Source: Hungatella effluvii (lineage in GTDB: Bacteria > Bacillota > Clostridia > Lachnospirales > Lachnospiraceae). From it: 64,000 nt of DNA. Location of the stretch: positions 248,001 through 312,000 of the forward strand of contig NZ_QJKD01000001.1 of the NCBI RefSeq assembly GCF_003201875.1, in the 5' to 3' direction. Position 1 is the stretch's first letter, and every line of letters starts with the position of its first letter. Both the position numbers and the translations under genes were made by a program. The notes under the pieces were generated by a model, which did not search any database, was not told the DNA's origin, and saw only the letters and a list, made by a program, of their open reading frames with translations. Shown here in pieces: positions 16,329 to 21,263 of the stretch.

Positions 16329-17690
16329 TTACAGAGAAAACAGTACTTCCTCCGCAAACGCAGTCTTCGCCATCTTTCCTGCCAGTTCTCCTCGTAAAAC
16401 CTCCACGCTCTTTTCAGCCAGCTTCCCAGCCTTTACAACGCACGTCCCTTCCACAAACACCATGTCCACATTGGAGGGGCCGGCGCTGTAGACCAGAGCC
16501 GAATAAGGATCGTAGATGGGGAACATATTGGCGGAGCGGGTCTCCACCAGAACCAGATCCGCCCGCTTTCCCACTTCAATGGAGCCGATCTTCTGTTCCA
16601 TATGAAGGGCCTTCGCGCCACCGATCGTAGCCATCTCCACCACCTGCCGTGCCGGAAATGCGCTCCGGTTCCTCGTCTCATTCTTATGGAAGTTGGCAAA
16701 CAGCTTCATCTGCGTAAAAAGGTCCAGCGTATTGCCGCTGGCCGGCCCATCGGTGCCGAGCCCCACAAAAATCCCCAGTTCCCGCATACGGCTGACCGGA
16801 GCGACGCCCTTGGCCGCCTTCGTGTTGGAACCGATACAGTGAGCTACCGAGGCCCTCCTCTTTGCAAACAGCCGCAAATCCGCTTCCGTCATCTGGATGC
16901 AGTGTGCAGCCAGCGTATGTTCCCCCAGAACTCCCAGGGAATCCAGATATCCCGCCGGAGTCTGTTCAGAAGTCTCCCGAAAATAATCCATCTCATAATC
17001 CATTTCCGCCGTATGAAGGCTGAAGGGAGCCCCAAACGCATCATCCAGCTTCCAAGCCGCCTTAAGGAGGCCGGCAGAGCAGGTAGTCGTCCCATGCGGC
17101 GCCACACAGGCGGAAATCCTGGTATGGCCCTGGTACTTCTTCATGAGGCTTTCCCCATAGGAAAGTGCCTCATACGGGTCTTTAAAATCACAGGCTTCCT
17201 CTTCCATTATGGTTTCTCCCGCAATACCACGAATCCCCATCTCATCCATGGCACGTGCAGCCTCCGCCTCGAAATAATACATATCAAAAACTGTGGTGAC
17301 CCCGGCCAGCAGCATTTCCGCCGCGGCATATTTCGTGGAAAGATAGACGAGCTCGGCATCCATGGCCCTCTGTTCCATAGGCAACAGAAATACTCTCAGA
17401 CGGTCCCTGCAGTCGTCGCCCAGACCCCGAAACGGAATCATCCCCATATGCGCATGAAGGTTTACCATACCCGGCATGAGGATTCCGCCCTTCCCGTCGA
17501 TCAGACGGAAACTTTCCCCTGTTTCATCGTCCATTTCATCGTCCCTTTCCTCCGCAATCAGCGCCTCCAGCATATCCATCGTTCCAACCGCGGTGATCTC
17601 TCCGCCTTTCCATGCGGCAAACCCGTGTTGTATCACTTCGCGCGTTTCATTCATCGTCACCACAGCTACATTCGTAATAATTGTACTCAC
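16329..17690 (-). CDS. Amidohydrolase, MTA/SAH-deaminase type
   Basis: A 453-residue metal-dependent amidohydrolase of the TRZ/ATZ group. Metal ligands are seen in NLHAHMGMIPFRGLGDD (about residues 78-94), HTAEMDYE, the later AHCIQM, and GLGTDGPASGNTLDLF near residue 310. The HAHxxMxxxRGxxDD block resembles 5'-methylthioadenosine/S-adenosylhomocysteine deaminases and SsnA-type enzymes, which deaminate aminopurines. Its start overlaps the stop of the adenine deaminase gene by four bases, so the two are translationally coupled and probably act together in purine salvage. Exact substrate unproven. Confidence 0.87.
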   Translation of the reverse strand: MSTIITNVAVVTMNETREVIQHGFAAWKGGEITAVGTMDMLEALIAEERDDEMDDETGESFRLIDGKGGILMPGMVNLHAHMGMIPFRGLGDDCRDRLRVFLLPMEQRAMDAELVYLSTKYAAAEMLLAGVTTVFDMYYFEAEAARAMDEMGIRGIAGETIMEEEACDFKDPYEALSYGESLMKKYQGHTRISACVAPHGTTTCSAGLLKAAWKLDDAFGAPFSLHTAEMDYEMDYFRETSEQTPAGYLDSLGVLGEHTLAAHCIQMTEADLRLFAKRRASVAHCIGSNTKAAKGVAPVSRMRELGIFVGLGTDGPASGNTLDLFTQMKLFANFHKNETRNRSAFPARQVVEMATIGGAKALHMEQKIGSIEVGKRADLVLVETRSANMFPIYDPYSALVYSAGPSNVDMVFVEGTCVVKAGKLAEKSVEVLRGELAGKMAKTAFAEEVLFSL

Positions 17691-19603
17691 TGTTCCACTA
17701 CCTTTTCTTCCTGTATCTGAAATGCTTCTACCAGAGGAATTTTTCTCTGGCTCTTCACATCGAACATACCCTGATCGCTTAACTTGAGCTCCGGAGACAC
17801 CAGAAGAGACAGTGTCGAAATGGACATAATGACATTGTTGTTCACATAGCCCATTCGCTCGATCTCTCCCCTCACAGCCCTGATCTCTGCCGCCAGCTCC
17901 GGAAGGCTCTTATCGGATATAATTCCACCCACCGGCAGTTCTGCCGCCGCTGTCACTCTGCCGCTGCTCGCCGTCACATAGCCGCCCTGCATATGCACCA
18001 CCTCATTCTGTGCCAGAACCATATCTTCCACAGAATTCCCCAGCACCAGCAGATTATGGCTGTCATGGGACCACGTAGTCGCCACGGCCCCTTTCTGCTC
18101 CAGCGCGTGTTCCACGAATCCCCACGAGACATTTCCATTTTTCCCATATCTCTCGAAAACAGCTGCCAGGCACAGCCCCGCCTCCTGCCAGCAAAGGTTT
18201 CCGTCCTGTACAGGGATTTCTCTCTGAACATGCTTCGCCCTGGTTCCAAAGGTCTGGATCTGCATCACATTCACCACAGCGGTTCCAGACAGGTTTGATA
18301 CCTCACTCCCGCTTGGCTTCCCGGACAAAGCCTCTTCCCCGCACTCATTCCGGCACGCTTCCTTTCGGCACTCTTCCTTCCGGTACTCTTCCTTCCGACA
18401 CTCTTCCTTCTGGTACTCTTCCTTCCAGAAATCATCAACTGGCAATATAAAATCCGATGCCAGGGCCAGCCTGCACTTCACCGAACTGTAAAAATGATCA
18501 GGAAACCTTTTTTTCAGACTGTTTTCCAGGACCTCCGCCGCCGCGTCCATACAGCGCTTTCCGTCTTTAAAAACCGCTTCCGGCACAAAGCTTTCCAGGT
18601 CGGGAAGAACGACGAAATCCGCCTTCTTCCCCGGCGCGATGATTCCCCTGTCATCGAGATGCATTCTCCTGGCCGGAGTAAATGTAGCCAGATAAATTGC
18701 TTTCTCTGCCGGCATCCCCTTCTCCACAGCCAGCCTGACAATCCGGTTCAAGTGTCCTTCCATCAACCGGTCAGGCATTGTGTCATCGGTTACCAGTGCA
18801 ATATTTTCATAGAGCTGCTTCCGTTTTACCACTTCCACAACTTCCTCTTTCAAAGATTTCTCCTGCAATTCCAGAAACATCCCCATATCTGTCTTCTCCA
18901 GGACCGATTCTGCCGTCTGTTCCGTATGATCCGCATCCACGCCCGCTCTGATAAACGCCGCTAAATCTCCGCCCGACAGCCCCGGACAATGCCCTTCAAT
19001 TCTGACTTTTCTGCCGCATTCCCCGCAGACTTCCAGAAATCTTTTACTCTTTGTATCCCCTTCCGCCACCAGATCTTTAAAGTTCATCACTTCCCCGAGA
19101 CAAACCACCCGCTCATCCCGCAGAAGCTCCCGAAGTTCCTTTTCCCCAAACTCTGCCCCTGATGTCTCCATCTCTGTTCTGGTAGCCGGAACACTGGACG
19201 GAATACCATAAAAAATATCCAGCTCCGTCTCCTGTTCCATAAAACTTAAAATCCCTTCGAGTCCAAACACATTGGCAATCTCATGAGGATCCGCCACCAC
19301 AGTTGTGACTCCAAACGGCACCACGGCCCGTGAAAATTCCTCCGGATACGTCATCGAGCTTTCCACATGCATATGAATGTCCACCAACCCGGGAATCACA
19401 AACTTTCCGGTCCCATCAAAGACCGACTCCGCTTCCCATTCCCCGCGCCGTGCTCCCACCCGCTGCTCCGAATCTCCCACAAAATCAGAAACAGGAGAAA
19501 CGTCAAAAAACTTTCCTCCTGTCACTGCAATATTCATTCGTTCAAAGCACTGCCTGAAAGTCCGATAAACCCAGGCATTCTCTATCACCAGATCCACTTT
19601 CAC
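17687..19603 (-). CDS. ade: Adenine deaminase
   Basis: Converts adenine to hypoxanthine and ammonia, using metal. Signature blocks are DIHMHVESSMTYPEEFSRAV with the first metal ligands, VVADPHEIANVFG, RIEGHCPGLSG, VTDDTMPDRLMEGHLN and the C-terminal domain with ATTWSHDSHNLLVLG. The frame extends to a TTG at 19636, but GAAGGAGG lies at 19611-19618 and points to a GTG start at 19603 (or 19609). At ~640 residues it is longer than the usual 570-600. The excess is a low-complexity EEYRKEECRKE tract between the two catalytic domains, encoded by tandem 15-bp repeats (18355-18430). Coupled to the downstream amidohydrolase by a 4-base overlap. Confidence 0.93.
   Translation of the reverse strand: MKVDLVIENAWVYRTFRQCFERMNIAVTGGKFFDVSPVSDFVGDSEQRVGARRGEWEAESVFDGTGKFVIPGLVDIHMHVESSMTYPEEFSRAVVPFGVTTVVADPHEIANVFGLEGILSFMEQETELDIFYGIPSSVPATRTEMETSGAEFGEKELRELLRDERVVCLGEVMNFKDLVAEGDTKSKRFLEVCGECGRKVRIEGHCPGLSGGDLAAFIRAGVDADHTEQTAESVLEKTDMGMFLELQEKSLKEEVVEVVKRKQLYENIALVTDDTMPDRLMEGHLNRIVRLAVEKGMPAEKAIYLATFTPARRMHLDDRGIIAPGKKADFVVLPDLESFVPEAVFKDGKRCMDAAAEVLENSLKKRFPDHFYSSVKCRLALASDFILPVDDFWKEEYQKEECRKEEYRKEECRKEACRNECGEEALSGKPSGSEVSNLSGTAVVNVMQIQTFGTRAKHVQREIPVQDGNLCWQEAGLCLAAVFERYGKNGNVSWGFVEHALEQKGAVATTWSHDSHNLLVLGNSVEDMVLAQNEVVHMQGGYVTASSGRVTAAAELPVGGIISDKSLPELAAEIRAVRGEIERMGYVNNNVIMSISTLSLLVSPELKLSDQGMFDVKSQRKIPLVEAFQIQEEKVVEQ
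18355..18430 (-). repeat. 15-bp tandem repeat inside ade
   Basis: About five copies of a unit encoding (E/R)KEE(C/Y) are arranged head to tail in frame. The tract links the amidohydrolase domain to the C-terminal domain and is rich in Glu, Lys, Arg and Cys. Confidence 0.8.
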
Positions 19604-19850
19604 AACCACAACACCTCCTTCATTCCCGTTAGCCAAAGTTCTCCAATTATCCCGCTTTTACTCCTCAGCCCACTTTTTAATTTCCTTCTCTCTGTTTATC
19701 CGGCTTTTTTACAGCCTCGTTATCTTTCAAATCCTTTATCTCATCTTTTTTTAATTTCTTTTTGTCTCTTTATCTTATCCCTTTTCTTATCACTTTCTTC
19801 TCATCAGTATCTCCGCCGTCCGCCATCTCCTACAGATCCCCTTCGTTCAC

Positions 19851-20204
19851 AAATTTCTAATGCCGCCTGCCCCAGCGGACTTTTCACAGCCTCGCCGGAA
19901 AGCGGGCGTGGGAGACGCGGGCAGAGAACGGGCGTTTTGCGTATGCGGGTCGATGTGTCTTAGCCTGGAGAAGTGCCGGAGCAGGGGGCTGCGGAGGGCA
20001 TACAGGGCCCAGAGCAGAGCGGACACGGAGGAGAAGCCATCAGGGCTTCTCCGTAGTTTCCGCGGTCCCCCTGCGGAGGTACTTCTCCAGGCTTAGACAC
20101 ATCCCCCGCAGGAGCTTAGCCCGTGCCCTGCCCGCGTCTCCCGCGCCCGTTTTCCTCAACCCCTTCGCAAAGTCCGCGCCCCCTTGCCATCACCAAAAAT
20201 TTCT
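19851..20204. repeat. ~300-bp giant GC-rich palindrome with flanking direct repeat
   Basis: Nested arms pair across a centre near 20040: GCGGACTTT (19875) with AAAGTCCGC (20169); 22 bases at 19903-19924 with 20128-20149 (one mismatch); 23 bases at 19952-19974 with 20081-20103 (one mismatch); and a central hairpin 20025-20054. The whole block is flanked by the 8-bp direct repeat AAATTTCT at 19851-19858 and 20197-20204, like a target-site duplication. It is much richer in G+C than the flanking DNA and has no convincing gene. A non-autonomous mobile element or a large structured RNA fits best. It lies between the PotD-like gene and ade. Confidence 0.75.
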
Positions 20205-20207
20205 GAA

Positions 20208-21263
20208 CTAAGAATTAATAATCCGATTCCACTGATCAATCCACTCTCCCAATATCGGATTCACAAACGAATAATCAATCACCTTTGCGTTCTCCGCCGC
20301 ATCGCCATACGTCATATTTGCGGACTCTTCCTCTGTAAATGCTACCTGGTTATTTGTAGGCGCCTCATTCAGCGCTTTTCCTGTCTTGGTCTGGAGTTCC
20401 TGGCTCAGTCTGTAATTGATGTACTCATAAGCCAGTTCCTTATTTTTCGAGTTCTTCGTAATGCTGATCGTATTAAAGTTCGCATATGTCACATCAGGAG
20501 TCACGTAGACGAGGCTCTGATCCGCCGCCTGAATCGTCGGCACGCCGAAATCACCAACAATGGCCGCAGAAATTTCTCCGGATGTAAACATATTAATCAG
20601 GTCCGAAGACTTCGCATACGTCTTCACGATATTCGGTTTCAGTTCCTTAAGCGCTTCAAAGGCCGCGGCTCCCTGATCTGCTGTCACGTCCGCCCCTTTG
20701 TAATCACTGGCCATATACACCATGGCCGGTCCAAAGGTTGTAGTGATATCCGGTATGGCGATCCGTCCCTCGAGTCTCGCATCCCAAAGGTCATCAAAAC
20801 TCTTAATCTCAAATCCCACATCCTCCGGATTGTACATGATACCGATGCTGTTGATGGTATAAGCGACACCCTGTCCCGCTTCCGCCATCTTCTTCGCAGC
20901 GCCGATCAAATACTTGCTGTTTTCAATTTTGCTTAAGTCGATTGGCTCAAATAAGCCTTCCTCGATTCCCTTCGCTGTCATGGCCTGAGACAGCTCGATC
21001 ACATCAATGACCGTTTCCGAGTCTGCTGACAATTTTGTATAACGTTCATTGGTGCTTCCTGTCTCCGTTACAATTTTGCAGCCAAATTCGTCCTCGAACG
21101 GCTTATAGACTTCCTCCTCGGATATATCCTCGCTGAGTCCATAAGTGGAGAGAATCAGTTTCTTCATACCCTCGTCATTTTTTCCGCCCTCTGCAGAGTT
21201 GGAGCTTCCACAACCAGTAAGCGCCAGTGCTGCGCAAAGAGACAATGCAATGATTTTCTTCAT
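20208..21263 (-). CDS. PotD-like solute-binding lipoprotein
   Basis: A 351-residue extracellular binding protein. The N-terminus is a lipoprotein signal peptide with lipobox LTGC at Cys18. The mature part has the spermidine/putrescine-binding-protein pattern (VIELSQAMTAKGIEEGLFEPID; YTINSIGIMYNPEDVGFE). It is the last gene of a transporter operon ordered permease, permease, ATPase, binding protein. A 151-bp repeat element separates it from the ATPase gene. Polyamine uptake is the family default; another small cation or amine remains possible. Confidence 0.88.
   Translation of the reverse strand: MKKIIALSLCAALALTGCGSSNSAEGGKNDEGMKKLILSTYGLSEDISEEEVYKPFEDEFGCKIVTETGSTNERYTKLSADSETVIDVIELSQAMTAKGIEEGLFEPIDLSKIENSKYLIGAAKKMAEAGQGVAYTINSIGIMYNPEDVGFEIKSFDDLWDARLEGRIAIPDITTTFGPAMVYMASDYKGADVTADQGAAAFEALKELKPNIVKTYAKSSDLINMFTSGEISAAIVGDFGVPTIQAADQSLVYVTPDVTYANFNTISITKNSKNKELAYEYINYRLSQELQTKTGKALNEAPTNNQVAFTEEESANMTYGDAAENAKVIDYSFVNPILGEWIDQWNRIINS

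Follow-up and report, generated by a model that had tools for sequence, protein, structure and literature searches.

Long palindromes with few mismatches are generally considered unstable in bacterial genomes. MITEs with a stem-forming body include ERIC, Correia/NEMIS, RUP and EFAR. Rolling-hairpin termini and the attC sites of integrons have a long imperfect stem, a branched or bulged tip and conserved unpaired features, while their stem sequence varies. REPs are described as being 20-40 bp long and as carrying GTAG/CGTC tags, and those of the GTAG type often supply the stop codon to neighbouring open reading frames (ORFs) (PMC3733652). REPs, BIMEs and REPINs are discussed together with RAYT in PMC3733652, PMC2817692 and PMC3116915.

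Here we analyse a palindrome from a 64-kb stretch of the genome of Hungatella effluvii ("the window" is this whole stretch). It belongs to a dispersed multi-copy family of giant hairpins which is represented in several genera of the Lachnospiraceae. Like MITEs, the family is non-coding, dispersed, intergenic and present in many copies, and inverted ends combined with target duplications occur in a sub-family of 431-bp elements and in a second palindrome family (family A). In contrast to MITEs, its members are longer, are near-complete palindromes with a conserved three-way junction at the tip, have copy-specific complementary arms, and form doublets of fixed orientation, and no parent transposon has been found. 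Terminal inverted repeats of 30 bp are present in the 431-bp sub-family, whereas the copy in the window has a 9-bp outer pair only. With REPs, BIMEs and REPINs the family shares extragenic palindromes, inverted doublets and, for some copies, a position flush with stop codons, but its elements measure 300-840 bp rather than 20-40 bp and no RAYT was found adjoining its copies. Because the elements are not of REP size and no linked RAYT was found, we file the family as a variant of the stem-forming MITE/REP-like repeats and not as REP. By analogy, its long stem of variable sequence and its branched tip may be likened to rolling-hairpin termini and attC sites, but neither a replication protein nor an integrase or cassette was linked to the elements here, and these are interspersed in chromosomes. 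We read the element as most likely an unusually large MITE/REP-like repeat that forms a stem and has a conserved tip in the shape of a Y, and the stretch in the window is probably a worn solo copy of a giant, non-coding, palindromic mobile family of the Lachnospiraceae. The literature considered, mostly listings and the beginnings of abstracts, holds no recognisable description of such elements and no name for them; the word "clostridi" is absent from the main text of a review of bacterial MITEs (PMC10969869).

The palindrome in the window

The palindromic element proper extends over 303 bp (19875-20177, assigned to neither strand). It was delimited by its sequence, arms and fold and by BLASTn relatives in its own genome (G000) and in that of Hungatella hathewayi DSM 13479 (G001), and is assigned to "class II". 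An earlier note on this DNA had described nested arm pairs spanning about 300 bp, and these are borne out. The outermost arms, recognised by sequence and fold, are GCGGACTTT (9 bp, 19875-19883) and AAAGTCCGC (9 bp, 20169-20177), and similar ends occur in loci L054 and L016. The arms of the window copy are unmatched between 19884 and 19896. Further inwards, stem arm 1 (19897-19933) pairs with 20119-20155 (37 nt, 89% complementary) and stem arm 2 (19952-19988) with 20067-20103 (37 nt, 86% complementary), the latter including the long arm with a single mismatch that had been reported before (23 nt, 19952-19974/20081-20103). The innermost pair is formed by hairpin arms 20019-20038/20044-20063 (20 nt, 80% complementary). 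The tip (19983-20075, + strand) scores 82.8 bits with our covariance model R2, the window copy being among its training rows. It has two side hairpins, A (19989-20017, + strand; consensus structure read onto the window copy by eye) and B (20019-20063, + strand; from the arms and the structure model), of which B is the best-conserved part.

The stretch 19851-20210 has a folding energy of -216.3 kcal/mol, compared to -140.6 kcal/mol (SD 5.3) for 100 shuffled sequences (z -14.4 on the + strand); for the opposite strand of the palindrome, z is -10.6. With -194 kcal/mol per 300 nt, the palindrome is the top fold in the 64-kb window, the next unrelated place reaching -123 kcal/mol. Its GC content is 0.61-0.67, compared to 0.33-0.49 in adjoining windows, so that the description as a giant GC-rich palindrome with a composition unlike that of both neighbours holds. 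The neighbours are genes for an adenine deaminase (17687-19636, - strand; from the ORF list and a family search) and for an ABC-type solute-binding protein (20208-21263, - strand), the stop codon of the latter being 30 nt from the element. ORFs which overlap the palindrome, e.g. 19367-19963 (+ strand), look like chance frames in our judgement.

An 84% copy of the left end of the element (19876-19894) is found 175 bp upstream, at 19701-19719, within a T-rich, G-poor stretch that holds another 27-bp repeat. This copy is perhaps the remnant of a lost partner.

Flanking repeats and the orthologous site

The earlier note had considered the two copies of AAATTTCT as a flanking duplication and as a sign of transposition. 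Both (19851-19858 and 20197-20204, + strand) are outside the element, at 16 and 19 nt, respectively, from the palindrome ends, and the 8-mer is found four further times in the window. Among 20,000 random sites, an 8-mer common to both flanks occurs at 257-340 when the flanks are 30 nt long and at 508-618 when they are 40 nt long (overall 1.3-3.1%). The AAATTTCT pair is thus probably a chance repeat and not a target duplication.

At the orthologous site of H. hathewayi, the stretch corresponding to 19675-20145 is missing (BLASTn blocks 19002-19674 and 20146-21000). The two blocks overlap by 24 bases, and a remnant of the right end is kept. Most simply, H. hathewayi has lost the window copy by deletion across a short repeat, so that this is not an empty site. 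Transposition is not demonstrated for the window copy, given the position of AAATTTCT outside the palindrome, chance sharing at 1-3% of sites and the apparent deletion in H. hathewayi. Neither a target duplication nor a clean empty site was found for the window copy and for classes I and II.

Copies and distribution

A genome-wide search for copies had been proposed, and it revealed them in the own genome as well as in relatives. A BLASTn search with 19851-20204, which links the copies without any model, retrieved eight other places in the own genome (E 4.2e-9 to 2.6e-5) and six in H. hathewayi (best E 1.3e-15), with matches that are mostly confined to the 55 bases at the centre. In the own genome, seven places are tips of other giant hairpins, and at the eighth (L016) a different hairpin has only the outer arm in common with the query. 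In H. hathewayi, one place is the remnant at the orthologous site. With a covariance model built from 11 tips (R1), 19 copies were found in the own genome with E-values of at most 4e-8 and a further one with 0.2, as well as 15 in H. hathewayi and seven in Diplocloster agilis ASD5720 (G016). These are the three positives among 41 genomes searched, the 38 other relatives having no R1 copy.

Matches to the broader model R2, built from 18 tips, occur in 26 of the 397 genomes searched from the same bacterial family, representing 23 of 334 genera; three of the 26 (H. effluvii, H. hathewayi and D. agilis) had supplied training rows. Copy numbers from this survey are lower bounds since at most 10 candidates were scored per genome. 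A pattern scan of named genomes returned at least 117 stretches, 89 of those listed being from D. agilis. Together with one viral contig, this results in 118 pattern loci, of which R2 confirms 110, including all 89 from D. agilis; these are tiles rather than elements, and an element split between two contig ends may have been counted as two. Loci L092, L104, L164, L174, L180, L189, L195 and the viral L196 are not confirmed by R2, and collections of phages and plasmids gave no match to the element. The units inspected have no long ORF.

In 46 of 120 model matches in the tiles examined, a contig end lies inside the tip, all of them in Diplocloster drafts (43 from D. agilis and three from D. modestus). 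Draft assemblies thus seem to break at the elements, whose number is probably underestimated. In the own genome, two near-identical class I elements (L023, L026) are at the ends of contigs C17 and C29, where the assembly probably broke at the palindrome; a promoter-like box then follows and, in one of them, a tRNA-like sequence (both by eye).

The earlier note had held that conservation as a single-copy gene would point to an RNA gene rather than to a mobile element. Instead, among the 11 H. hathewayi copies compared, an orthologous element exists for four of the 20 elements of the own genome. Two more H. hathewayi sites retain arms alone.

Conserved shape and changing sequence

The tip is a three-way junction which consists of a closing stem, the variable side hairpin A and the conserved side hairpin B. 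Without fitting to the model, an alignment of 18 tips has changes on both sides at 18 of 24 pairs, with a covariation of 0.621 as compared to 0.211 when shuffled and 0.09-0.12 when slid. When 66 distinct tips are aligned by fitting to the model, all 24 pairs have changed on both sides (covariation 0.933 versus 0.201 when shuffled). This tip module is common to elements whose ends are quite unlike one another, namely those of class I, of the 431-bp type, of Diplocloster and of G101 and G171.

Such covariation is also what might be seen if the elements were structured RNAs, either in a 3'-UTR or stand-alone, with the Y-tipped hairpin stabilising or processing mRNA. Mismatches in the tip show an excess of G.T (63) over A.C (26), with 15 of the 26 in one column pair and with an alignment that had been fitted to an RNA model; the excess would fit a function on one strand at the tip. 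Several classes share a CTGA/GAAT internal loop, which as RNA could presumably form tandem sheared G.A pairs. In addition, four of 14 R2-type Hungatella elements are located within 10 nt behind a stop codon, as compared to 192 of 2,925 random intergenic points (6.6%, length-weighted). The arms tell against such an RNA: in 63 elements, their mismatches (G.T 178, A.C 188) have no overall strand bias, although the G.T/A.C ratio varies by group (36/25, 10/14, 17/11, 13/13, 46/60, 25/12, 31/53). If a single RNA strand were functional, G.T should dominate; the near-equality thus speaks rather for elements maintained as DNA. Moreover, sister species differ in the presence of elements at several sites, a scan of 19500-20400 returned neither a promoter-like nor a terminator-like site around the window copy, and no Rfam match at the gathering score was obtained in the 64-kb window or in ten other loci. 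We therefore regard a structured RNA as unlikely.

Matches to Rfam miRNAs were obtained at a relaxed threshold but are below the gathering score, and the hairpin shape accounts for them. Adjoining a class I element, L006 has a match to the Rfam Clostridiales-1 RNA (1225-1353) which at 42.8 of 48 bits is also sub-threshold.

Class I copies have in common a mid-stem block as well as the ends CCARTACACA-GCC...GGC-GTA, while the outer ~40-50 bases of each arm are copy-specific, with complementarity being kept. How arms diverge was followed in three orthologous element pairs from the two Hungatella genomes, the structure of one member being applied to the other in both directions. In these six comparisons, 5/129, 2/126, 0/128, 3/132, 12/159 and 8/151 pairs are broken, while 7, 6, 6, 6, 17 and 14 pairs, respectively, have changed on both sides and are still paired; one to five pairs have turned into G.T. 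For L050/L045, the alignment is insecure in the outer part. The flanks at orthologous sites diverge by ~5-18%. A former count of zero broken stem pairs was discarded as biased, having been based on a structure built from both members; with one-member structures, a few are broken.

Arms may also be lost or joined. Two class I sites in H. hathewayi have arms without a tip, one of them keeping a remnant of the mid-stem block. Locus L042, in which the outer arms of L027 and L030 are joined, has the appearance of a doublet of these two that has collapsed, and the window copy, with its arms unmatched at 19884-19896, may have a similar history.

Doublets and RAYT-like genes

In the loci examined, R2 matches less than 1 kb apart form 15 distinct pairs, of which 14 have the orientation (-,+), one has (+,+) and none has (+,-), some doublet loci having been chosen because a close pair had already been seen in the R2 survey. 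In G101 and G171, each doublet makes up a unit of ~810-840 bp. The window copy is solo. An autonomous element between paired hairpins was considered for G016:C89 and G164:C6 but rejected, as the ORFs found there look like ordinary genes.

A fixed orientation of doublets is reminiscent of REPINs, and the elements might be REP/REPIN-like and travel in single-stranded, folded form through the action of a tyrosine HUH transposase (RAYT), with the Y-shaped tip as the recognition hairpin. By eye, no target duplication was seen for class I and for the G101 and G171 doublets. RAYT-like PF01797 matches in frames of 235-311 aa were found in nine of 18 chosen R2-positive genomes but only in one of 12 negatives (a weak 193-aa match in G195 was excluded from the count). 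The association does not extend to the loci: the surroundings of 14 RAYT-like genes (up to ~4 kb on each side, some shortened by contig ends) contain no R2 match, and no such gene was seen in the other nine positives, both Hungatella genomes included. The 431-bp sub-family makes target duplications of 9 bp. HUH elements are not known to make any. Movement by a RAYT is thus improbable in our view.

Another strong hairpin was noticed ~2.8 kb upstream of a RAYT-like gene in two Diplocloster genomes (L340 ~1101-1500, L346 ~1201).

Position relative to gene ends

With gene ends taken from longest-ORF calling, eight of the 14 R2-type Hungatella elements are within 60 nt behind a stop codon. Random intergenic points are as close in 461 of 939 cases (49%) when each gap has equal weight and in 856 of 2,925 (29%) when weighted by length. 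Within 10 nt, the counts are four of five for family A and one of one for another element, in addition to those given above for the R2 type. Of all 20 Hungatella elements, 13 are within 60 nt of a stop codon in this way, but a general rule to that effect was rejected in view of the controls of 49% or 29%; the preference is strong for family A only.

The elements might also have been domesticated at gene ends, as bidirectional terminators or insulators kept by selection. This would be compatible with the raw count in G101, where a stop codon lies no more than 6 nt from an element end in seven of ten copies, and at both ends in two of these (up to five mismatches were allowed in locating several of the ends). 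At one such G101 site, giant hairpins are also present in three sister species; these seem to be, at least in part, relatives without side hairpin B, and R2 matches none of them. Against a role at gene ends, the Hungatella counts within 60 nt show little or modest excess over random points, many copies lie between tandem genes, and the window copy lacks the T tract which follows the short stem of an intrinsic terminator. We consider such a domestication very improbable.

Transposition of the 431-bp sub-family

Elements of the L049/L051 type are 430-431 bp long and have inverted ends of 30 bp. Six two-ended copies are all that were found in the two Hungatella genomes, one of them a tipless version of 137 bp. 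In every case, their 9-nt flanks agree in eight or nine positions; this occurs at 12 of 100,000 random sites. For one insertion in H. hathewayi, the orthologous position in H. effluvii contains the target only once, i.e. it is an empty site (by eye), and a class I element of H. effluvii is ~25-30 nt away from it (also by eye). Transposition is thus demonstrated for the 431-bp sub-family but not for the window copy. The suspicion of transposition had been right in kind, the family being dispersed and multi-copy and including a sub-family with target duplications and with an empty site in a sister species, but not with respect to the AAATTTCT duplication on which it was based, and the comparison with a related strain yielded an apparent deletion for the window copy itself.

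The two genomes contain 16 matches to ends of the 431 type, 12 of which belong to the six two-ended copies and enclose 137-431 bp. ORFs were listed within 1.5 kb of the four single ends, and no parent transposon was seen. The only ORF with a transposase name, a PD-(D/E)XK nuclease-family ORF at L293 (28.3 bits at a cut-off of 27.4), is outside the end.

Rpn-type ORFs were observed near this single end (L293:454-1317, PF12784, 28.3 bits) and near a G171 doublet (L200:3516-4040, PF04754, 60.3 bits).

Persistence of the palindromes

If the family is indeed one of MITE/REP-like mobile palindromes, it might persist as selfish DNA, with transposases provided in trans acting on its ends. What matters would be the palindrome as DNA, in the form of a hairpin or cruciform, and the arms could be kept equal when one is copied from the other during replication. 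Selection would keep the tip and the unpaired features, perhaps because the tip is recognised by a protein, either a cellular one or part of the moving machinery, and insertions would survive between genes, where they do least harm. Copying from arm to arm alone should, however, erase the conserved mismatches.

A new class of mobile DNA might replicate or move as a folded hairpin, its conserved, single-stranded Y-shaped tip being read by an enzyme and its arms being re-copied from each other in each cycle, which would give each copy matched arms of its own. The tip module would then be what functions, and the transposon ends would serve it only as vehicles. We hold this to be rather improbable. 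No moving enzyme was found linked to the elements. SbcD relatives were matched in all 30 genomes tested, in 25 of them above the cut-off, including 17 of 18 R2-positive genomes, so that survival of the palindromes is not due to absence of that nuclease. The family provides natural replicates for asking how palindromes persist and why their arms coevolve.

Other palindromes in H. effluvii

Family A is a second family of giant palindromes in the own genome. It has an unrelated core and the ends GTAACAG...CTGTTAC, and there are five copies in 646 kb (C1:81413-81699, ~119.2k, 198884-199168 and 236822-237027; C11:113555-113843). The 8-nt flanks agree at eight, seven, seven and five of eight positions in the four copies that could be resolved. 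One site is without the element in H. hathewayi, and the insertion appears to shift the stop codon of a gene to an earlier position (by eye). The idea that arms are copied from target DNA, which arose from the copy at C1:236.8, was ruled out, as the whole palindrome is absent from the H. hathewayi site. At 198.9k, merely a small hairpin is seen in H. hathewayi.

The fold census of this genome is a lower bound, the known R2 element at C11:45.7 being under the threshold. A strong fold at C1 ~169700-170100 originates from a coding-looking tandem repeat and not from a palindromic element. A third palindromic repeat is present at C1:117263-117419, where it measures ~157 bp, and at C11 ~125040-125260; the H. 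hathewayi orthologue of the C1 copy is without it.
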